NCBI GenBank assembly: GCA_021299265.1
Contig: JAJTGP010000036.1
Location: forward strand, 1-42,648
Length of the DNA: 42,648 bases
Direction: 5' to 3'
From: Hyphomonadaceae bacterium
GTDB lineage: Bacteria; Pseudomonadota; Alphaproteobacteria; Caulobacterales; Aquidulcibacteraceae
In this document: piece by piece, positions 3,077 through 14,055 of the stretch
Layout of the letters: each line of letters begins with the position of its first letter
How positions within the stretch are numbered: the first letter of the stretch is position 1
Position numbers and translations under genes: made by a program
The notes under the pieces: generated by a model
Seen by the model: the letters and a program-made list of their open reading frames with translations, nothing else
Database searches by the model: none
What the model was told of the DNA's origin: nothing

Positions 3077-5929
3077 ATGAGCAAACCAAAGCGCACCCCT
3101 TTAAAGCCCTGGACGATAGAAGCCGTAGTCGATGGCAACCGCTTGCGCGTGCAATTATCCGCCGCCGCACTGGACCATTTGGGTGATGAAAAGGCGGCCA
3201 GAGCCCGGGCTCTGGACCTGCTCAAAGGGGCTTTGTTTCGCGGCCGCCTGATTGCGCAAGAGCGGTTAGAAAGCGGCGCCGGCGGGCTTGATTGCGCGCA
3301 CCTGTTGGCAGCCGTGCAAGATCAAGTGATCTCAGCCCTCTATGATTTCACGATCACTCACGTGTTCCGCGCACGCAATCCGACGGCGGCAGAGCGGTTG
3401 AGCGTGTGTGCCACGGGCGGCTATGGCCGCAATTCCATGGCGCCATCGTCGGATGTCGATTTAATGTTCGTCCGCCCAATCAAGGATGCGTCTTGGGCCG
3501 AGAGCGTGATTGAATATATGCTCTATATGCTGTGGGACATGGGCCTGAAAGTCGGCCATGCCTCGCGCACGATTTCTGAGTGTTTGCGCGCTGCCCGCGA
3601 AGACATGACGATCCGAACCTCGGTACTGGAAACCCGCTTTGTCTGCGGCGATAAGCTATTGTTCCGGGAGTTGGAAATCCGCCTGCGCAAGGACTTGTTT
3701 GACGGCACGGCAGCAGACTTTGTCGCGGCGAAACTGGCCGAGCGCGACAATCGCCACCGCCGCACGGGCGAAAGCCGCTATATGGTCGAGCCCAATATCA
3801 AGGACGGCAAAGGCGGCCTACGCGATCTACATACCCTCTTCTGGATCGCTAAATATATTCACGGCACCGATGAGGTCGGCCAATTTGTCGAAAAAGGCAT
3901 TTTCAGCCGCGAGGATATGAAGCACTTTAATCAGGCAGCTGAATTCCTATGGACCGTCCGCTGTCACCTCCATTTCCTAACGGGGCGGGCGGAAGAGCGC
4001 CTGACCTTTGACTTACAGCCTGAAATGGCCCGCCGCATGGGCTATGGCGATAGGGCCGATAATCCAGCGGTAGAGCGCTTTATGAAGCGCTATTTTCTCG
4101 TCACCAAGCAAGTGGGTTCCTTGACGCGCATCTTGTCGGCGCGGCTGGAGTTAGACCGGCAAAAAGCGGCGCCGCGCGGGATATCGCGCTTCTTTGCCAG
4201 CCCGCAAAAGGCCAAACAGCTGGATGACCCCCGCTTTATTGAGGATCGGGGTCGCATCGGGTTTGCGCATCCAGAACAGGTCGCCGACGATTTGTCGGCC
4301 CTGATCGATATCTTCAAAATGGCAGATAGCTTAGACCTTGATATCGATCCCTCCGCACTGGCGCGCGTCACCAGCATGGCGGCGAAGGGCCGGATTATGC
4401 GAGACGATCCAAAGTCCGTTGCCAGCTTCTTAGACCTTGCCACCTCAACGAAAGACCCTGCCCGTGCGTTGGGGCTTTTGAATGAGGCTGGTCTCTTAGG
4501 TAAGTTCGTCCCCGAATTTGGGCGGATTGTCGGCCAAACCCAGTTCAATATGTATCATCACTTCACTGTGGATGAGCATACTTTGCGCGGTATCGCCAAT
4601 ATCTCCGATATTGAGCACGGTCGGTTGAGCAAGGAATTGCCAGTCTCGACAGAGCTTTTCCCGCGCATTGCCAACCGCCGCGCGCTCTATTTGGCCATGT
4701 TGCTGCACGATGTCGGCAAGGGCGAAGGCGATCAACAGATTGAAGGGGCAAAGGCTGCCAATATTGCCTGTCGCCGTCTGGGCCTTGATGCTGAAGAGGT
4801 TGAACTGGTTGCTTGGCTGGTCGGGCACCATTTGATCATGAGCGAAGTGGCCCAGCGCCGCGATATTGGCGACCCGAAAACCATCACAGACTTTGCAGCT
4901 AATGTCGGGACGTTGGAGCGGTTGCGCTTGCTGCTGGTTTTGACCGTGGCTGACATTCGCGCTGTGGGTCCAGGTGTTTGGAATGATTGGAAAGCGCAGC
5001 TCCTGCGCGACCTATATAAGCTGACCGAGGCCACGCTGCGGGGTGGCCGGTCCGATGAAGGCTTTGTGCGCCGTCAATTGCGGGCTCAGGCGGATGAGCG
5101 CCGAGCGCAGGCCTTGATTGACCCCATTCTCGCGGAATTCTTTACCAGCCTCGAAGACGCTTATTGGCTCGGATTTGATACCGATCAACAGAAATGGCAT
5201 GGAGCCGAAGTGGCGAAAGCGCTGCGGCAGCAATCGCCCTTTTGGCTCGCCTCGCGGCTAGCACCCAGTCGCGGTGCCACAGAGGTCTTGGTCCTATCAC
5301 CCGATCAACCGGGCCTCTTTGCAGCCCTGTCGGCCGTATTTGCGCAAGCAGGCGCCAATGTCATTGATGCGCGAATCCATACCTCCAAAAGTGGCCAAGC
5401 CTTCGACGTCTTTGCCCTACAGGATCAGTCCGGGGCGGCCTTTGGCGAAGGCCGGCAAGACGCCATCGACCGCCTGTTTACCCGCCTAGAAACGGCACTG
5501 GATGCGCAACGCAAAGCGGAGCGAGAGCGTCTGGTTGCAGCCACGGCTGGCACCGTTAAAAAGCCGACCAATCGCACTGCCGCGTTTGCGATTGAGCCCG
5601 TCATCATGATCGACAATGAAGGCGCGGCCTTTGATACGATTGTGGAGGTCTCGGGTCGGGATCGCACAGGCCTCTTGGCCGATCTGGCGCAAGTCTTTGA
5701 GGACGAGGGCCTAAACGTGACCTCTGCTCATATTGATAGCGTGGGCGAGCGGGCAACAGATGCGTTTTATTTACGCGATCGCGGTGGCTTTAAATTGTTG
5801 GAAGCGCGGCGGATCACGACTTTGAAGGAGCGTCTGATGGGCGTTCTGGCAGAAGCAGATACGTCGGAGGGGCCAAGCCTTTTGCCCCGCCGGAAACTCG
5901 CACGCGCACGCGCCAGCAGCCGCCGCTAA
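3077..5929 (+). CDS. glnD: bifunctional PII uridylyltransferase/uridylyl-removing enzyme
   Basis: A 950-residue GlnD of full length. The nucleotidyltransferase core GGYGRNSMAPSSDVDLM is at residues 114-130, with the two metal-binding aspartates. A GlnD-type linker follows, then an HD phosphohydrolase domain at about 490-620 (HHFTVDEHT, LLHDVGKG near 544). Two ACT domains close the protein at about 735-800 and 855-930. It senses glutamine and attaches or removes UMP on PII proteins, setting glutamine synthetase activity and nitrogen-gene expression. All catalytic motifs look intact. The start is the ATG at 3077. It converges with the GH84 gene, leaving 4 nt between stops. Confidence 0.97.
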   Translation: MSKPKRTPLKPWTIEAVVDGNRLRVQLSAAALDHLGDEKAARARALDLLKGALFRGRLIAQERLESGAGGLDCAHLLAAVQDQVISALYDFTITHVFRARNPTAAERLSVCATGGYGRNSMAPSSDVDLMFVRPIKDASWAESVIEYMLYMLWDMGLKVGHASRTISECLRAAREDMTIRTSVLETRFVCGDKLLFRELEIRLRKDLFDGTAADFVAAKLAERDNRHRRTGESRYMVEPNIKDGKGGLRDLHTLFWIAKYIHGTDEVGQFVEKGIFSREDMKHFNQAAEFLWTVRCHLHFLTGRAEERLTFDLQPEMARRMGYGDRADNPAVERFMKRYFLVTKQVGSLTRILSARLELDRQKAAPRGISRFFASPQKAKQLDDPRFIEDRGRIGFAHPEQVADDLSALIDIFKMADSLDLDIDPSALARVTSMAAKGRIMRDDPKSVASFLDLATSTKDPARALGLLNEAGLLGKFVPEFGRIVGQTQFNMYHHFTVDEHTLRGIANISDIEHGRLSKELPVSTELFPRIANRRALYLAMLLHDVGKGEGDQQIEGAKAANIACRRLGLDAEEVELVAWLVGHHLIMSEVAQRRDIGDPKTITDFAANVGTLERLRLLLVLTVADIRAVGPGVWNDWKAQLLRDLYKLTEATLRGGRSDEGFVRRQLRAQADERRAQALIDPILAEFFTSLEDAYWLGFDTDQQKWHGAEVAKALRQQSPFWLASRLAPSRGATEVLVLSPDQPGLFAALSAVFAQAGANVIDARIHTSKSGQAFDVFALQDQSGAAFGEGRQDAIDRLFTRLETALDAQRKAERERLVAATAGTVKKPTNRTAAFAIEPVIMIDNEGAAFDTIVEVSGRDRTGLLADLAQVFEDEGLNVTSAHIDSVGERATDAFYLRDRGGFKLLEARRITTLKERLMGVLAEADTSEGPSLLPRRKLARARASSRR

Positions 5930-5933
5930 GACC

Positions 5934-7001
5934 CTATTGCGTTTGGACCATCTCGGTTGTCGCCGCATATTCATCTTGCAGCCAAGCCAGAATTTCGCGC
6001 GCCGCCGGGTGATTAATCGACTGATAGCGCTCAACTAAGGCTTCGCGCCGCTTACCAAGCTTGGTAAGCCCTAGGTCCTGGAAACTCATGATGTCGGCGC
6101 GCACCTTATCGGCCAATTCTGAGCCTAAGACTTTCACCGCTGCAGCATGGCCACTCGCGCCATAGCAATATTCATCACCTTGTTGGTAGGCGATGGCGAG
6201 CGAAATCGCGGGTATGCAGGTGAGAAGGGGCTGCAAGGCCGGATTGAGGGCGTGGCCGGACACCCAATCCGCTAAACGGTGGGAGCGGCCGGTAAAACCG
6301 CGTAGGTGCAGGAATTGGCTCATCCGAGGGCCATCATTGACGGGATAATTATCCCATAACAGAGGCTTGCGCTTTAACAAGGCTCCAATTTCACGCACAT
6401 GGCCGACCGAAATCTCACGCGCGCAGACCTCTTCACCCGTCCAATAAATATCGATTTCCGGATCAAGGCTTAAGCCTAACTCCCGCAGATAATGTTCGGG
6501 GCGGCGGCCAAAAACGCGGTCCAGCACAGGATCGTTGGAATAATAAGTCGGAGTCATGGACAGCTTCAACTGGGGTGCGGTGTCACGCGCAAGATGCATG
6601 ATCTCAATTTGCCGCTGTGCGAGATCTGGCAGGCTGGAGTGCATGTCGTCGAAGAAAATGCCGAGATCTTGAATACCGTGAGAGGCCAAATCCTCAACGC
6701 GGTTGATGAAGGTATTGCGCACGCTACCATTGAAATCATTGAAGGCTTCATAGGGGCTGAGGCCAATCCCGACCCGGACGCCAAAGCCTTTGCAGAAAGC
6801 GACAAATTGCGAAATCTGCGCGGCTTCTTGCAAAGAATGCGGCTCTACCCACCGGCGTCGCAAGAAAGGGTCACCTTTGGGCGCATAATGGAAAAAGCGA
6901 TAGCCATAAGGGGCTAACATCTCAACCACAGCACGGCGGTCATCCCATGACCATGGTTGACCGAAATAACCTTCAATAATACCTAAATTAGGGGTCGACA
7001 T
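5934..7001 (-). CDS. GH84-family beta-N-acetylglucosaminidase (O-GlcNAcase-like)
   Basis: A 355-residue single-domain protein of the NAGidase (GH84) fold. Family hallmarks are EGYFGQPW at 10-17, the catalytic aspartate pair in IFFDDMHSS (D118-D119), WTGEEV near 205 and LWDNYPVND near 235. GH84 enzymes remove N-acetylglucosamine by substrate-assisted catalysis. In animals they act on O-GlcNAc proteins; bacterial substrates are mostly unclear. There is no signal peptide, so a cytosolic role is likely. The ATG at 7001 has AGGTG upstream and leaves an 8-nt gap after the PodJ-like gene, so it is probably its operon partner. A longer open frame upstream overlaps that gene and was rejected. Confidence 0.88.
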   Translation of the reverse strand: MSTPNLGIIEGYFGQPWSWDDRRAVVEMLAPYGYRFFHYAPKGDPFLRRRWVEPHSLQEAAQISQFVAFCKGFGVRVGIGLSPYEAFNDFNGSVRNTFINRVEDLASHGIQDLGIFFDDMHSSLPDLAQRQIEIMHLARDTAPQLKLSMTPTYYSNDPVLDRVFGRRPEHYLRELGLSLDPEIDIYWTGEEVCAREISVGHVREIGALLKRKPLLWDNYPVNDGPRMSQFLHLRGFTGRSHRLADWVSGHALNPALQPLLTCIPAISLAIAYQQGDEYCYGASGHAAAVKVLGSELADKVRADIMSFQDLGLTKLGKRREALVERYQSINHPAAREILAWLQDEYAATTEMVQTQ

Positions 7002-7009
7002 AGGGGCAC

Positions 7010-10000
7010 CTAGTCTTGTGATCCACTCTCGGGACGGAATTTTGCGACTAATTGATCTTGTGAGGCCCGTTGCTCTGGCGTCAAACGGGCACCAATTTCT
7101 CGAACTTTTGCCGACGCGTCCTGATCCCCGCCACGGGCAGCCAAAGCAAACCAATAATAGGCTTGCACGTCAGACTTTGGACCGCCAAGGCCTTGCTCTG
7201 CCATAGCACCCAAATTGAACTGAGAGTCGGTGACACCGCGCTGCGCCGCAAGACGGAAGCTTTCGGCTGCACGCGCCATGTTTTGTGGCACGCCATCGCC
7301 ATTGGCGTAATAGACGCCCAGATTATGCATCGCTTGGCGGCTACCGCGCGCTGCAGCGCGTTCGGTCAAAGCACGTGCTTGCGACAAATCCTTGGGAACG
7401 CCATCGCCATTCTCAAATTTTCTCGCCAAGCGGTTCATCGCGCGTGTATCGCCACTGTCTGAAGCGCGGCGCAGAAGCGCAACGCTGCCTGCGCCATCAC
7501 CAGCTTGTTCACGCGCCATGGCTTGTTCGAACAGGGAACCGCTGGCAGGTGTTGCGCCAGATGCGACGACAGGTGGGACAGCGCGCGGCTGATTTGGTGT
7601 TGCTGCCACAGCGGCGGCAGGCGCGGCGGCGGTTGGGGTTGCTGGCACGCGGGTTGGCGCTGCGGCTGCGGCGGTGGCGGTGGCTGCGAGTGCAGGTGCG
7701 GCGACCGAAGCCACCCGGGGTGGGGCTGCCGAACTGGCGGTTGGCGCTTTCGCGACTGTAGCAACGCGCGGTGCCGGCTGCGCGATTGGGCGCTGAGACG
7801 GCCGCGGCGTTGCGTCGGGACGAGCGGCGTTAAAAGTGGAGGTGCGCAGGCGCGCACGCTGAGCTTCGGCACGAGCTTTAGCGGCGCGAGCTTGTGCATC
7901 TGCAGAAGCCATGATGCGCGCTGCTTCTACTTGCTGAGCCGTCGGTGCCGGCTTAGCGGCGGGTGGCGTGGCAGCAGGGGGTGTCGCAACCTTTGTCGCT
8001 GGCGGCACCAATTGCGCCTTTGGCAATTGTGGCGGTGGGTTTGCGATGCTTGGCGTCGTCGTTGCACCTGCGGCACTTGGGGAAGCTGGGGCTGCAGCTG
8101 GCGCCGCGGCGGCGGGTGGAGTGCCTGCTGGGCCTGCAGCGACGGGTGCCGCTGGTGGTTGAGTGGCGTCCGCTCCGGGGGCAGGCACCGCGCCTGCAAC
8201 GGGTGCAGGCGTGGCCATTTGCGTCGCAAGCTCTGGCGGCAAGGGCACGTTTTCTTGCTTGAGAGCGGCTGGCTTTTCGTCAGCATTGGCCGACGGCCGT
8301 AATTGGCTATAGACCGCAAAACCACCGGTAGCGACCAAAGCGGCGGCGGCGGCGATGCCAACCGGGGACAAGGGCCCCTTCGGCTTAGCCCCGTCCTTAC
8401 CGGGATCTTTGCCGGCCTGAGGCGCTTGTGCCTTGGCAACAGGCTTCGTCTTTGCGTTTTGGGCTTTTGCGTTTTGGGCATCCGCCTTTTTGTCTTTGCC
8501 GCCAGGTGCCTTTAAGGACAGGGCTGGCTTCTTCTTGCTTTGGGCAGCTTCCCGCGCAGCGGCAGCCTGATTCGCGGCCCGGCGGGCAGCGACCAAATAG
8601 TCTGGCGCTGTGCCGGCACTCGTGCTGGGCTCATCCCAGTCATGGTCCAAGACACCGAGGCCATCATCGAAATCAGCGTCGAGCGGTGCGGTCGCGTCCA
8701 GCGCCATCGGCTCCAACTCGGCACCAAAAGGATCGTGGCTGCCTGCCAACGGGTCTGGCACATCATGGCGCAGATCAGCGAAATCGCTCAGGGGTTCGAC
8801 ATCATCGCCGTCTGGAAACGGCGAGCCGAAACTGCCACGCCGCGCCGGACTGGCACCGGTTGCTGCGGCCGCAGGTTTTGCATTTGGACTATCCATGAAG
8901 AATGGATCGTCAAACTGCGGTTTCTCCAGCGAATTCAAGCGTGTTTCAAAGCTGAAGCCATCGTCATCGGGCAATTCAGCCGGATTGACAAAGCCCAATT
9001 CTTCACGCGCCGGCCCACCGACATCAACTGCATGATTGGGATCATAAATCGGCTCAGCATAGGCTGCGACACTTCCCTGCTCCGCCTTTTCCAAACGCAC
9101 ACCAAAAGCAGCAAAGTCGCGCTGCAGCGGCGCAATCATCGACTGAACGCGCGCGTCAACCGATTGAATTTCCGTGCGCACTTGGCCTAGGGCTTCATCG
9201 AGCATTTCGCGTGTCTTGTCGTCTTTGCCACCGACACTGGAAGCAAGGCTTTGAAGCGCATTGTCATGATTGGCCGCGAGACGATCCGCCAATTCCTGCA
9301 CTTGCTTACTGATCGTAGCGATGGATTCTGCGGACTGACGCTCGGACGTATCGAGGCGGTCACCCAGGTTTTGCGCCAAACGTTGGATATGTTGGCCCGC
9401 CTGCTCCATAACGGAGGCATCATGCCGCTCAATCGACGACAGACGCTCATCAACGGCACGTGTGATGCGCGCCAGCTCCAGCTTCATCGCTATAGAGCCC
9501 GTTTGATCTGGGCCAGCCTCACGGCTTTCCACTTCAGCCAAGCGCGCATCGAGAGCGTGCGTGGCTTCTGCCAGTTTGGCACTGACGCGATCAAACGCCT
9601 CGTGACTGCGCTGTTCACTGGCGTCGAGACGGCTCGCGAGGGCTTGAGCCACTTCCGTCATCTGGCCACCGACACCGCCAGAAACAGCCGCTTCAACCTG
9701 CCCCTGCAGGTCAGCACGGGTCGCCTCAATCTTGGCATTCAAATCATGGAGGCGCGCGGAAAGCTCGTTGGTCTTGGCCTCAAGCGCATCCACGGCCGTC
9801 AGCGTATCGCCGGTCTTTCCTGCCCCTTCAAGTTGGGTCAGGCGCGCGGAAAGCTCCACCAAGGCCTCGACCATGCGCGACGCATTATCCTGCGCATGGG
9901 CTTCAATGCTGTTCACCCGCTCTGTCACCAGATTGATGCCTTGGTTAGCACCTTCAATGGTTTGGGTGGTGATATCTTCCAATTGACCCAAGCGGCCCTC

Positions 10001-10714
10001 GAGGACCGAAACATCGCCCCCTGCAGGCCGATCACCAACCTCTTCAAGGCCGGTCAGCCGCGCTGAAAGGTCAATCATAGCATCGGCAAAGCGGGAATTG
10101 GTTTCTTGGGCCAAAGCCTCTGTCGTGGCCAAACGCTCAGCGACCAAGCCCAAGCTTTGGTCAACAGTTTGGATGGCCTCTTGCGTGACTTTCTCAATCT
10201 GGCCGACGCGGGTATCGGTCTCAAACACTTGGGTGGACAAGCGGGCCAGCGCCGATTCCAGCGACTTCAAGGCCGCCAAGGATGCATGCGATGGGTCTTG
10301 CGATTCAATGCGGCGTAAGCGCTCGCTCAAGACCACTTGAGTTTCGCGCAGATCGTTTAGATGGGTCTCAACACGCCCCATGGCGGTGTCGCCGCTTGGT
10401 GCGGCTTTTTCAAACTTTTGCGACAAGCGATCATCGACAGTGGAAGGCTGTGCTGGCGCTGCCATTTCCACACCACCGGACTCTAAGCGACGGGTGAGCT
10501 GTTCAAGCGCCGCTGTCAGGCGGCCGGCTTCTTGACCGAAACTCCCACCAGATTTTGCACTGGGAACTGGCTTTGGCGCGGGTTCATCTGTCTCTGCGAT
10601 CAGTCGGTTCAGCAATTCGCCCAGCGTGAGACCTTCGCGGCGCGCGAGATCCTTCGCAGCCTCGCGTGTCTTAGGCTCTACGCCTTTCACACTCCATGGC
10701 GACTGTCCGCTCAT
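7010..10714 (-). CDS. podJ: PodJ-like polar localization factor (coiled coil, one membrane span, Sel1 repeats)
   Basis: A 1234-residue protein with the layout of PodJ. It has an N-terminal SPWSVKGVEPKTREAAKDLA segment typical of the family and a long coiled coil at about 50-560 with repeated SARLTQLE-like heptads. An acidic stretch, a Lys/Ala-rich region and one membrane helix near 785-810 follow. Next comes a Pro/Ala-rich periplasmic linker (about 815-1060), and then Sel1-type repeats (about 1065-1215) with GDGVPKDLSQA and GDGVPQNMARA. PodJ organises the new pole in Caulobacter for pili, holdfast and division signalling. The ATG at 10714 is chosen over a GTG nine bases upstream because GGAAGAG sits 8 nt before it. 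The gene symbol is by architecture, not measured similarity. Confidence 0.8.
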   Translation of the reverse strand: MSGQSPWSVKGVEPKTREAAKDLARREGLTLGELLNRLIAETDEPAPKPVPSAKSGGSFGQEAGRLTAALEQLTRRLESGGVEMAAPAQPSTVDDRLSQKFEKAAPSGDTAMGRVETHLNDLRETQVVLSERLRRIESQDPSHASLAALKSLESALARLSTQVFETDTRVGQIEKVTQEAIQTVDQSLGLVAERLATTEALAQETNSRFADAMIDLSARLTGLEEVGDRPAGGDVSVLEGRLGQLEDITTQTIEGANQGINLVTERVNSIEAHAQDNASRMVEALVELSARLTQLEGAGKTGDTLTAVDALEAKTNELSARLHDLNAKIEATRADLQGQVEAAVSGGVGGQMTEVAQALASRLDASEQRSHEAFDRVSAKLAEATHALDARLAEVESREAGPDQTGSIAMKLELARITRAVDERLSSIERHDASVMEQAGQHIQRLAQNLGDRLDTSERQSAESIATISKQVQELADRLAANHDNALQSLASSVGGKDDKTREMLDEALGQVRTEIQSVDARVQSMIAPLQRDFAAFGVRLEKAEQGSVAAYAEPIYDPNHAVDVGGPAREELGFVNPAELPDDDGFSFETRLNSLEKPQFDDPFFMDSPNAKPAAAATGASPARRGSFGSPFPDGDDVEPLSDFADLRHDVPDPLAGSHDPFGAELEPMALDATAPLDADFDDGLGVLDHDWDEPSTSAGTAPDYLVAARRAANQAAAAREAAQSKKKPALSLKAPGGKDKKADAQNAKAQNAKTKPVAKAQAPQAGKDPGKDGAKPKGPLSPVGIAAAAALVATGGFAVYSQLRPSANADEKPAALKQENVPLPPELATQMATPAPVAGAVPAPGADATQPPAAPVAAGPAGTPPAAAAPAAAPASPSAAGATTTPSIANPPPQLPKAQLVPPATKVATPPAATPPAAKPAPTAQQVEAARIMASADAQARAAKARAEAQRARLRTSTFNAARPDATPRPSQRPIAQPAPRVATVAKAPTASSAAPPRVASVAAPALAATATAAAAAPTRVPATPTAAAPAAAVAATPNQPRAVPPVVASGATPASGSLFEQAMAREQAGDGAGSVALLRRASDSGDTRAMNRLARKFENGDGVPKDLSQARALTERAAARGSRQAMHNLGVYYANGDGVPQNMARAAESFRLAAQRGVTDSQFNLGAMAEQGLGGPKSDVQAYYWFALAARGGDQDASAKVREIGARLTPEQRASQDQLVAKFRPESGSQD

Positions 10715-11060: not shown

Positions 11061-12197
11061 CTATTCAGCAGCGATCTTCACTTGCTTCAAAGCATCGGCA
11101 TTTACGCCGAAATTGACTGCTTGCAGGAAGCGAATGCCATCTTCGGCAATGTCATCGCCGACCATATGCTCACCTTCAGCCTCAAACTCCGCGAAGTCGA
11201 CATACATGGCGTAGAAGGCCTTGGTACGATCGGTGATGATATTTGCATTCCACAAGGTCTTCACCAGAACGCGGAAGATGTTGGTAGCTTCCTTCATCCG
11301 CTCACGACGGTCTTCATCGGTTACCATTTCTTGGAACTGGACCATGATGATATCTGGATCGAGGCCGAATTGGTCATAGATGGCGCGCATTTGATGCGGT
11401 GCGACCAAATTGAACAACAAGGTCTGGAAGCAATGCGCGGCCCAGTCTTCAACAATCGCATGTTCTGCGGCATCGAGCTTTGGAATGGTGCGGTCGGCCC
11501 AAATCTTCCCAAACTTGTGGTGGAAGGCCTCGTCGGTCATGACCAATTGCGTCAGCTTTCGCGCCAGCGGGTCATTCCATTCCTTGTATATCATCGCAAA
11601 GGCACCCATGGCGAGGCCTTCGATCAACATTTGCATGCCGACGATTTTCTTATAAACTTCAGGCGCGTGAACGATATCGACCAGCAAAGTCTTCAGCACG
11701 TCGCCGCAAGGCAGAGGGCTTCCCCAACGGGCTTTGATATAGGCTGCGAAAGCGGCAACATGGCGGGCTTCTTCGCGGGCTTGGTTCGCCGCATATTCCT
11801 GCGCACCAGCATCGCGCAACACGTGGCAGAGCGAAGCGGAAAGGTTCAGCGCGCCCTGTTCGCCATGCAAAATGGCCGACAATTGCCAACGGGCCATTTC
11901 ATTCTTGAAGCGAATAAGCTCTTTCGGCTTATCCTTGAAGAATTCTTGGACATAAGGGGTCTCCAGCGCAGGAACCATATGGTCTGGCAAGAGCGCTTGG
12001 TTTTCCATATCAAACGGCTCGTCAAAGTCGATATAGCGCTTGTCCGTCGGGTCCCAGAAGTGATCATGCGTGGCAGAGATGATTTTGTCGAAAGCTGTCG
12101 AACGGCCCGTGTGCCGGTCGATTTCCAACATGGCAGCAAAATCTGTTGGCGCGACCGCGTCATACAGAGCGTCTTTGGTAATGTGCGACGTTGTCAT
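11061..12197 (-). CDS. ferritin-like diiron protein (function unknown)
   Basis: A 378-residue soluble helical protein with a complete set of diiron ligands for a ferritin-like/ribonucleotide-reductase-like bundle: E113 (HGEQGA), E143-x-x-H146 (EEARH), E193 (LIEGLA) and E223-x-x-H226 (DEAFHH). This pattern belongs to carboxylate-bridged diiron oxygenases and oxidases, including N-oxygenase-like proteins. The substrate cannot be read from sequence. There is no signal peptide. The frame extends 44 codons further upstream, but the ATG at 12197 (MTTSHITKD) has GGGAGAG before it and begins the conserved part. It appears monocistronic, with a strong terminator directly downstream. Confidence 0.75.
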   Translation of the reverse strand: MTTSHITKDALYDAVAPTDFAAMLEIDRHTGRSTAFDKIISATHDHFWDPTDKRYIDFDEPFDMENQALLPDHMVPALETPYVQEFFKDKPKELIRFKNEMARWQLSAILHGEQGALNLSASLCHVLRDAGAQEYAANQAREEARHVAAFAAYIKARWGSPLPCGDVLKTLLVDIVHAPEVYKKIVGMQMLIEGLAMGAFAMIYKEWNDPLARKLTQLVMTDEAFHHKFGKIWADRTIPKLDAAEHAIVEDWAAHCFQTLLFNLVAPHQMRAIYDQFGLDPDIIMVQFQEMVTDEDRRERMKEATNIFRVLVKTLWNANIITDRTKAFYAMYVDFAEFEAEGEHMVGDDIAEDGIRFLQAVNFGVNADALKQVKIAAE

Positions 12198-12381
12198 GCT
12201 TTCAATCTCTCCCATTTTGTTCGATGACCGGGTCTTTGGAACCTCGGCTTTGGTCCATGAGCTTAGAGCGACATCTAAGCGTGTCGCTTCTAGGCCTAAC
12301 ATGACACAAATTTCTAAAGGATCAATCAAAAAATGACGGGTGCGTCAGCTTCACCCATCAAAGGGTTGTGATGAGCTTACC

Positions 12382-14055
12382 CTACAGATCATGAATCGAG
12401 CGGTCCTTCGTCTCAGGCAGGAAGATCAAGGCCACCACGACGCTAATGGCCGTGATAATCACCGGATACCAAAGCCCCGAATACATATTCCCTGTCGTCG
12501 CGACGATGGCGACAGCTGTTGCCGGCATAAAGCCCCCAAAGAAACCGGTGCCAATATGATAGGGTACCGACAAAGCCGTATAGCGGATGCGGGTTGGGAA
12601 CATCTCCACCAAGGCCGCTGCCAAGGGTCCATAGAGCGCTGTTGCAGCGACCACAAACACCATCAAATAGGCCAAAACGGTCAGATGATCGATCTTAGCA
12701 GGGTCTGCCTTGTCTGGATAATTTGCGGCCTTCAAAGCCGTCTTCAGCTTAGCCCCAAAGGCGTCCTTGGCGGCTTTTTGCGCTTTGGCATCGAGGGCGG
12801 AAATATCCACGCTATCGAGAATGACCGTGCCGATTTTGACTTGCGCCACGGCACCCGCAGGGGCCACTTCATTGTCATACGAGATGCCTGAATTGGTCAG
12901 ATAGCTCTTGGCCACATCACAGCTGGACGAGAAGGCATCGCGCCCGTCTGGCGTTTTACCAACCGGGTTGAATTGCACCGAACAGGTTTCAGGGTCTGCC
13001 CGAACAACAATCGGCGTTGCGGTTTGGGCAGCAACAAGATCAGGATTGGCCGCTTTGGCCAATTGATGGAAGGCTGGGAAGAAGCTCACCACTGCCAAGA
13101 TCATGCCCGCGAGCATGACGGGCTTGCGGCCCAATTTGTCGGACAGCCAGCCAAAGAAGACATACAGAACGGCCGAGAATGTGGTGATGATCAATAGCCA
13201 GATATTGATGGTCTGGGGGTCGACCTTCAGCTGGCGCTCCAAGAAGACTTGGACATAGAAGAAGCCCGTGTACCAAACCACCCCTTGCGCCATCATCAGA
13301 CCAAATAAGGCTAGCAAGATCAGCTTCAGATTGCGCCATTGACCAAAGGCATCCGACAAGGGGGCTTTAGAGGCTGCGCCTTCTTCCTTGAGTTGCTTGA
13401 ACATCGGGCTTTCTTCCAATTGCAAGCGGATCCACAAAGCAATCGCGAGCAAGAAAACCGACAGCAAAAAGGGCAAGCGCCAACCCCAAGATTGGAAGGC
13501 TTCTTCACCCAAAATGACGCGGGTCAAAAAGACCACCATTAAGGCCAAAAGCAAACCACCAGCAGCCGATGTCTGTACCCAAGAGGTGTTCCAACCGCGC
13601 TTATGGGCGGGCGAATGCTCCGCCACATAGATCACAGCACCGCCATATTCACCGCCTAAGGCAAAGCCCTGTGCAATCCGTAAAGCAACCAATAGGATTG
13701 GTGCCCAAATGCCGATCTGGTCATAATCTGGCAGCAGGCCAACGGCAAAGGTTGAGGCACCCATCATCACGATCGTGACCAAGAAGGCACCCTTACGGCC
13801 CTTGGTGTCGCCAATCGCGCCAAAGACCAAAGCCCCAAGGGGCCGCGCGGCAAAGCCGACGCCAAACGTCAAAAGCGCAAAGATGAATTGAGCAGCCGGG
13901 GGCGAACCCGCAAAGAAGTGCTGGCCCATCACCGAGGCCAGAAGGCCAAAGATGAAAAAGTCATACCACTCAAAGACAGTCCCGGCCGCAGAAGCGGCGA
14001 CAACGGTCTTCAGTTTTTGCGGTTCAACAGGCGACGAAGCAGCAGGTTTTGTCAC
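12382..14055 (-). CDS. MFS transporter of the metabolite:H+ symporter (MHS) type
   Basis: A 557-residue major-facilitator protein with twelve predicted membrane segments. Its N terminus is typical of the MHS family: ASAAGTVFEWYDFFIFG, then GFAARPLGALVFGAIGD with the conserved GD-(G)RK loop, then RIAQGFALGGEYGGA. Proton-coupled uptake of an organic acid or amino-acid-like compound is expected; the substrate is unknown. Between helices 9 and 10 there is an extra-cytoplasmic insert of roughly 110 residues with two cysteines (PETCSVQ and SSSCDVA) that could form a disulfide. The start is a GTG at 14055 whose AGGGG ribosome-binding site lies in a strong hairpin. The TPR gene lies 92 nt upstream on the same strand. 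Confidence 0.88.
   Translation of the reverse strand: MTKPAASSPVEPQKLKTVVAASAAGTVFEWYDFFIFGLLASVMGQHFFAGSPPAAQFIFALLTFGVGFAARPLGALVFGAIGDTKGRKGAFLVTIVMMGASTFAVGLLPDYDQIGIWAPILLVALRIAQGFALGGEYGGAVIYVAEHSPAHKRGWNTSWVQTSAAGGLLLALMVVFLTRVILGEEAFQSWGWRLPFLLSVFLLAIALWIRLQLEESPMFKQLKEEGAASKAPLSDAFGQWRNLKLILLALFGLMMAQGVVWYTGFFYVQVFLERQLKVDPQTINIWLLIITTFSAVLYVFFGWLSDKLGRKPVMLAGMILAVVSFFPAFHQLAKAANPDLVAAQTATPIVVRADPETCSVQFNPVGKTPDGRDAFSSSCDVAKSYLTNSGISYDNEVAPAGAVAQVKIGTVILDSVDISALDAKAQKAAKDAFGAKLKTALKAANYPDKADPAKIDHLTVLAYLMVFVVAATALYGPLAAALVEMFPTRIRYTALSVPYHIGTGFFGGFMPATAVAIVATTGNMYSGLWYPVIITAISVVVALIFLPETKDRSIHDL

Follow-up and report, generated by a model that had tools for sequence, protein, structure and literature searches.

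A GH84 glycosidase encoded directly behind a podJ-like gene in a genus of Aquidulcibacteraceae as a candidate enzyme of peptidoglycan salvage

In this work, we have analysed a stretch of 42,648 nucleotides (the window hereafter; positions 1 to 42,648, forward strand, of contig JAJTGP010000036.1, assembly GCA_021299265.1) from a Hyphomonadaceae bacterium of the GTDB family Aquidulcibacteraceae. In this stretch a gene for a PodJ-like polar scaffold protein (P0002) is followed on the same strand by a gene for a glycosidase of family GH84 (P0001), and the features of the locus are collected in Table 1. Our analyses suggest that the GH84 protein is, with moderate confidence, a cytosolic exo-beta-N-acetylglucosaminidase of peptidoglycan salvage, and that its place behind podJ is a stable trait of one genus.

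Table 1. Position of the podJ-like gene, the GH84 gene and associated features in the window
Feature	Position	Strand	Description and evidence
glnD	3077..5929	+	Convergent, 4 nt past the GH84 stop; PF08335, E 2.1e-47
GH84 gene	5934..7001	-	355 aa (P0001), catalytic barrel and short helical tail; PF07555, E 1.1e-51; model pLDDT 94.1
Codon of D223	6333..6335	-	Equals TtOGA D228 by alignment offset; invariant in 44 sequences
Codons of catalytic pair D118-D119	6645..6650	-	Equal TtOGA D119/D120 by alignment to 5diy; invariant in 44 sequences
Intergenic gap, podJ-like gene to GH84 gene	7002..7009	-	8 nt; same strand
PodJ-like scaffold gene	7010..10714	-	1234 aa (P0002); Sel1 E 1.2e-21, hydropathy, composition
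Sel1 repeats of the PodJ-like protein	7115..7465	-	About residues 1084-1200; PF08238 in 3 stretches, span from PDB Sel1 matches; predicted periplasmic
PodJ-like protein, likely transmembrane segment	8306..8368	-	About residues 783-803; hydropathy peak starting at 782-787

The GH84 protein belongs to its family by profile, with 176.4 bits against PF07555 for a cut-off of 25. PF07555 is its only Pfam match, the NCBIfam model NF041654 is matched below its cut-off, and in the same Pfam and NCBIfam searches the protein falls outside the GH3 family and NagZ (NF003740). Its structure model shows the (beta/alpha)8 barrel known from solved structures of the family; the top Foldseek match was 5diy, the O-GlcNAc hydrolase TtOGA of T. 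terrenum (E 1.7e-26), and VIA-align aligned 328 residues with 5diy_B (Z 37.3, rmsd 2.8). In TtOGA, D119 stabilises the acetamido group, D120 protonates the bond and D228 holds O4 and O6 of GlcNAc (PMC4683255, excerpts); the corresponding residues were compared in an alignment of 44 sequences selected from the GH84 loci described below. Since the first barrel strand of the model begins at residue 5 and the N-terminus has no hydrophobic stretch, the strongest 19-residue hydrophobic window by hydropathy beginning at residue 254, the protein is read as cytosolic. Thus, the initial annotation of this DNA is confirmed as to a GH84 start 8 nt after the PodJ-like stop (7002-7009) and an intact DD pair (D118/D119), and is borne out, as a prediction from hydropathy and from the model, as to the lack of a signal peptide.

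The PodJ-like protein bears, in this order, an N-terminal WSVKG motif, a coiled-coil-like part, an acidic linker, one likely transmembrane segment, a Pro/Ala-rich linker and Sel1 repeats, the transmembrane and coil assignments coming from simple hydropathy and heptad counts; its relatives in other genera match it at both ends. Because the gap between the genes is only 7-8 nt, podJ and GH84 would be co-transcribed, and the AGGTG at 7007-7011, which is made up of the gap and the stop codon of the podJ-like gene and is present at 7 of the 9 genus junctions, could serve as the ribosome site for GH84.

How widely is this pair conserved? We searched 61 genomes of the same genus, family and order, the window's own among them, with P0001, and found a relative in ten: the own genome, all eight others of its genus, and G054, the only one of 24 genomes from other families of the order. 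GH84 was found in none of the 28 same-family genomes of other genera. The podJ-GH84 junction, for which the initial annotation had left open that it might be confined to a single genome, is present in all nine genus genomes, with a gap of 8 nt in eight and 7 nt in one and with ATG or GTG as the GH84 start. Among the named GH84 loci, which are the best 80 of 590 encoding a relative, the closest ones with the same pair (GH84 88-75% identical) come from Aquidulcibacter sp. (L013), an unclassified alphaproteobacterium (L014) and Candidatus Phycosocius bacilliformis (L015); Aquidulcibacter and Phycosocius are both Caulobacterales in the NCBI taxonomy. The GH84 gene is under purifying selection in the genus, with a dN/dS of 0.03-0.05 against the own gene and of 0.02-0.06 across the 16 pairs giving a value. 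Its synonymous divergence is high, dS to the own gene being 0.58 for the nearest relative, 1.4-2.6 for five and not estimable for two, and above 1.2 in 13 of those 16 pairs.

In one genus genome (G005), neither GlnD nor the 422-aa gene found upstream of podJ in the window was present in the stretch covered (about 2.4 kb 5' of podJ and about 8 kb 3' of GH84), different open reading frames (ORFs) follow GH84, and the pair is kept; glnD is therefore not part of the podJ-GH84 unit. Outside the genus, PodJ-type loci were drawn from the 46 genomes with a match to the PodJ-like C-terminus, which was matched in 55 of the 61 genomes overall (E up to 1e-20). None of the 21 loci obtained (L125-L145) has GH84 or GlnD beside podJ within flanks of about 1.5 kb, less in two; L132 and L135, with open frames of 220 and 391 aa, are maybe not whole podJ genes. 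In five other-genus genomes (G029, G020, G013, G022, G024) different ORFs lie 3' of podJ, by eye a similar one of 302-305 aa in G029, G022 and G024, and because of these differences no certain ancestral junction, that is, an empty site, was found in the five genomes or in G005. A second podJ link considered at a Phenylobacterium locus (L049), where an N-terminal motif match lies 3 kb away, was rejected: this ORF is truncated where the contig ends, and its similarity is limited to the short WSVxG motif. Given a junction present throughout the genus despite the high dS, kept in G005 and seen at none of the 21 loci outside, the podJ-GH84 pair is a stable genus trait that was not seen more widely among these loci.

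In a tree of 91 GH84 sequences, the nine podJ-linked ones group as a single clade with full support and a long stem, which is not placed with the Caulobacteraceae sequences. This placement, together with a pair seen in one genus only and with the lack of GH84 in the rest of the family, is what one would expect if an acquired GH84 gene had landed behind podJ in the ancestor of the genus and had since been carried by synteny and shared transcription only, the neighbourhood itself being without function. We give this explanation an even chance. Against it speaks that the 7-8 nt junction has been kept while synonymous sites became largely saturated, and that the pair is kept in G005 although the window's flanking neighbours are not in the flanks retrieved there. 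It concerns another axis than the activity of the enzyme, and may hold together with a role of GH84 in salvage.

It is mainly for its O-GlcNAcases that family GH84 is known. This agrees with the excerpts of PMC4683255, in which TtOGA is an active, cytoplasmic bacterial O-GlcNAcase and an O-GlcNAc transferase (OGT) partner is the criterion for choosing bacterial O-GlcNAc systems. With such a precedent, and with O-GlcNAcases as the closest solved structures, P0001 might be thought to act on protein-bound GlcNAc, removing it either from the PodJ-like scaffold or from further proteins of the cytosol. We regard this as very improbable. The profile search found GT41/OGT (PF13844) in none of the nine genus genomes, so that the protein O-GlcNAc reading is not supported, and a cycle using a transferase of another family has no support here either. 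The helical C-terminal part, proposed in TtOGA to recognise the protein part of substrates (PMC4683255), is much shorter in P0001 (355 aa in total vs 474 in the 5diy chain), and part of the GH84 subfamily adjoins muramic-acid genes. Across the 61 genomes PF13844 was matched in seven, six of them without GH84 and the seventh (G054) with both; GT41 was found in 6 of the 28 other same-family genomes, all without GH84. Where the initial annotation had proposed a sugar-based control of a polar or cell-wall process, the cell-wall part fits, the GH84 subfamily tracking peptidoglycan recycling, and the part concerning sugars on proteins does not; the predicted substrate, muropeptides, is an outcome which that annotation itself had counted as refuting.

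The company of the GH84 genes points to muramic sugars. We compared 91 GH84 loci (L002-L092) with flanks of 1.5 to 8 kb, over which misses weigh unequally, their neighbours being called with a codon-usage caller as a guard against antisense shadow ORFs. Eight loci (L012, L047, L050, L054, L057, L069, L071 and L089) hold at least one of AnmK, NagA, NagB-II, NagK and MurQ, and six of these (L012, L047, L050, L054, L069 and L089) have AnmK or MurQ. In Sphingopyxis (L069), an SSS symporter, MurQ, GntR, NagX, NagB-II, NagA and GH84 lie on one strand, with 4-nt overlaps between NagB-II and NagA and between NagA and GH84; NagK and AnmK are convergent on the opposite strand, with a GlcD-like gene, also opposite, in between. 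Within the window's genus itself, G007 has a second GH84, 49% identical to P0001, in a salvage cluster (L149, G007:C167:5000-20831) with AnmK, NagA, NagB-II, MurQ, SSS and GntR. In the GH84 tree, 7 of the 8 nag-cluster sequences, this second copy being one of them, group with three further sequences in a part of the tree that is mainly Sphingomonadales, and the remaining one, L071, lies elsewhere on a long branch. From the placement of both copies in this tree we infer a horizontal gain of the podJ-linked GH84 and of the nag-cluster GH84 of G007, which for the latter is likely. The contig of L057 is labelled Arthrobacter sp. TPD3018, and both its GH84 and its gene order place it with Sphingomonas; this record is probably mislabelled or contaminated.

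Part of this company would also suit an enzyme whose main task is to cleave chitobiose or chito-oligosaccharides imported as nutrients, and which so feeds NagK, NagA and NagB: the Sphingopyxis GH84 is adjoined by NagA, NagB-II, NagK, NagX and a sodium:solute symporter, and of the genes sought, L071 holds just NagK and the symporter and L057 just NagK. We consider such a main role unlikely, since the AnmK or MurQ found at six of the eight loci act on muramic sugars rather than on chitobiose, and since the distribution of NagZ and AnmK in the Marinobacter family, described next, argues against it as well.

Anhydro-MurNAc, the sugar that AnmK phosphorylates, becomes available only once GlcNAc has been split off. 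In Caulobacter it is NagZ that splits GlcNAc from the MurNAc-type sugar (PMC13046382, excerpts), and NagZ has the same role in Agrobacterium recycling (PMC9790009, excerpts). We searched 46 GH84-bearing genomes (the own genome and those of 45 of the 77 loci L016-L092) with the NagZ profile, and seven had no match at all, namely four Marinobacter genomes and those of L037, L061 and L087. In the family of one of them, G062 (Marinobacter changyiensis, L017), sampled with 121 genomes evenly drawn from a larger group, GH84 is present in 94, NagZ over its cut-off in 30 and AnmK in all 121. When both enzymes are crossed, genomes absent from the match lists counting as misses, 90 genomes have GH84 only, 26 NagZ only, four both (G099, G105, G125, G136) and one, the 2.1-Mb G121, neither; in G138, one of the GH84-only genomes, a long frame matches GH3 weakly. 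GH20 was found in 6 of the 121 genomes, all of them NagZ-only, and in 0 of the 90 GH84-only genomes. Among the three enzyme families searched, GH84 is the sole candidate for GlcNAc release in these 90 genomes. An AnmK tree was built for 60 of the 121 genomes, comprising 25 of the 26 NagZ-only genomes, all four with both, 30 of the 90 with GH84 only and the one with neither; G118, whose AnmK is split, was left out. The 30 GH84-only genomes form one clade in it (97/93), separate from the clade of those with both. This is a single-gene tree with a long-branch warning for the NagZ-only rows. Several independent displacements of NagZ, which we had also considered, are not supported, as the tree has one GH84-only clade.

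The window's genus presents a different picture. AnmK is present in all nine of its genomes, and so is the permease TIGR00901, which we take to be of the AmpG type; in G000 two contigs each carry a part of the permease, and neither part reaches the cut-off. The genus NagZ exceeds the 207-bit cut-off in one genome of nine and falls below it in eight (196-206 bits). This low score alone is no sign of decay, because the NagZ of G012 and G040, from other genera, fall under it too, the cut-off being harsh for this group. In all nine genus genomes (loci L146 and L169-L176) the NagZ motif reads KHxPGQG, vs KHxPGHG in all 27 others examined, E. coli included; the histidine of PGHG is, we presume, part of the published NagZ signature. 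A simple replacement of NagZ by GH84 was rejected for this genus, as its nine genomes all keep a NagZ-like GH3 with intact DSH and DD residues. Because NagZ is retained, the most fitting reading for the GH84 of the window's genus is that of a second NagZ-type activity, or a specialised one, and not of a proven replacement.

Several of our results weigh against a role of GH84 in peptidoglycan salvage. The retained genus NagZ, with its residues intact, means that the pathway there would be complete without GH84. At 83 of the 91 loci no salvage gene lies in the stretch examined, and in the GH84 tree the podJ-linked clade stands apart from the nag-cluster sequences, the long branch of L071 being the exception. 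Moreover, 39 of the 46 GH84-bearing genomes match the NagZ profile, 28 of them over its cut-off, so that displacement of NagZ is not general outside Marinobacter, and the Sphingomonadales loci with salvage genes belong to genomes that keep NagZ. Even in the Marinobacter family, the loss of NagZ counts as one event, kept since, because the GH84-only genomes form a single AnmK clade.

We nevertheless favour peptidoglycan salvage, because of the salvage genes found beside part of the subfamily and because GH84 and NagZ are complementary in the Marinobacter family, where AnmK is universal. We propose that muropeptide units are imported into the cytosol, where GH84 would remove GlcNAc from GlcNAc-(anhydro)MurNAc, with or without peptide, a reaction that is otherwise that of NagZ, and that the products would pass to AnmK and the GlcNAc salvage enzymes; in the window's genus GH84 may work beside NagZ. 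In the titles and abstract openings of the papers that our searches on GH84 and peptidoglycan recycling returned, subscription papers lying mostly outside this scope, no peptidoglycan role for GH84 is stated. If a bacterial GH84 subfamily does perform the NagZ step, lineages with an intact AnmK and no NagZ would be explained, and bacterial annotations as "hyaluronidase" or "O-GlcNAcase" would need revision.

What could be the meaning of the podJ neighbourhood? In Agrobacterium tumefaciens, podJ is one of the genes in which insertions are synthetically detrimental when the muropeptide importer YejABEF is lost (PMC9790009), so that there is an alphaproteobacterial case of genetic interaction between a polar scaffold and the recycling of the wall. 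In this light, the podJ-GH84 operon is suggestive of a link between polarity and recycling, and if GH84 acts on muropeptides this operon would make the link testable. In a more speculative and, in our view, rather unlikely extension, a horizontally spread GH84 subfamily of NagZ-independent muropeptide-sugar enzymes would have been wired into the podJ operon and be made with PodJ, perhaps at its pole, coupling recycling to polar growth, and the histidine-to-glutamine change would be a sign that NagZ now shares its load or has had it shifted.

Elsewhere in the window, the gene upstream of podJ (11061-12329, minus strand) encodes the 422-aa protein, which has weak aldehyde decarbonylase and AurF family matches, and beyond it (12382-14055, minus strand) lies a gene for a transporter-like protein of 557 aa in which, by eye, about 100 residues between membrane segments look like a soluble insert. 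PADLOC gave no match.

Among known systems, NagZ resembles the proposed GH84 enzyme in its cytosolic reaction and pathway position and in its complementary presence in the Marinobacter family; it differs in belonging to an unrelated family, P0001 being GH84 only, and in being itself present in the window's genome. The bacterial O-GlcNAcases TtOGA (5diy), OgOGA (2xsa/2xsb), CpOGA/NagJ and BtGH84 share with P0001 the GH84 barrel, the DD pair and D223 (Z 33-37). In contrast to them, P0001, about 22-28% identical in structural alignments, has a shorter helical C-terminus, no OGT partner in its genome and relatives that in part adjoin muramic-sugar genes. The mucin-degrading GH84 of Bifidobacterium bifidum is likewise a beta-N-acetylglucosaminidase outside O-GlcNAc cycling, although it is described as acting on host mucin glycans and is compared here by that description only (PMC10245121, excerpts).

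The PodJ-like protein, compared by published layout, has the coiled coils, disordered linker, single transmembrane segment and Sel1 arrangement of PodJ from Caulobacter and Agrobacterium (PMC9926476, excerpts), and differs in that GH84 follows it here, whereas other ORFs follow podJ in the five other-genus genomes. Finally, whereas the window's GH84 sits behind podJ, genes of the MurNAc/GlcNAc salvage clusters (MurQ, AnmK, NagA, NagB-II, NagK, NagX) lie near 8 of the 91 subfamily loci, one of which is the second copy in the same genus.

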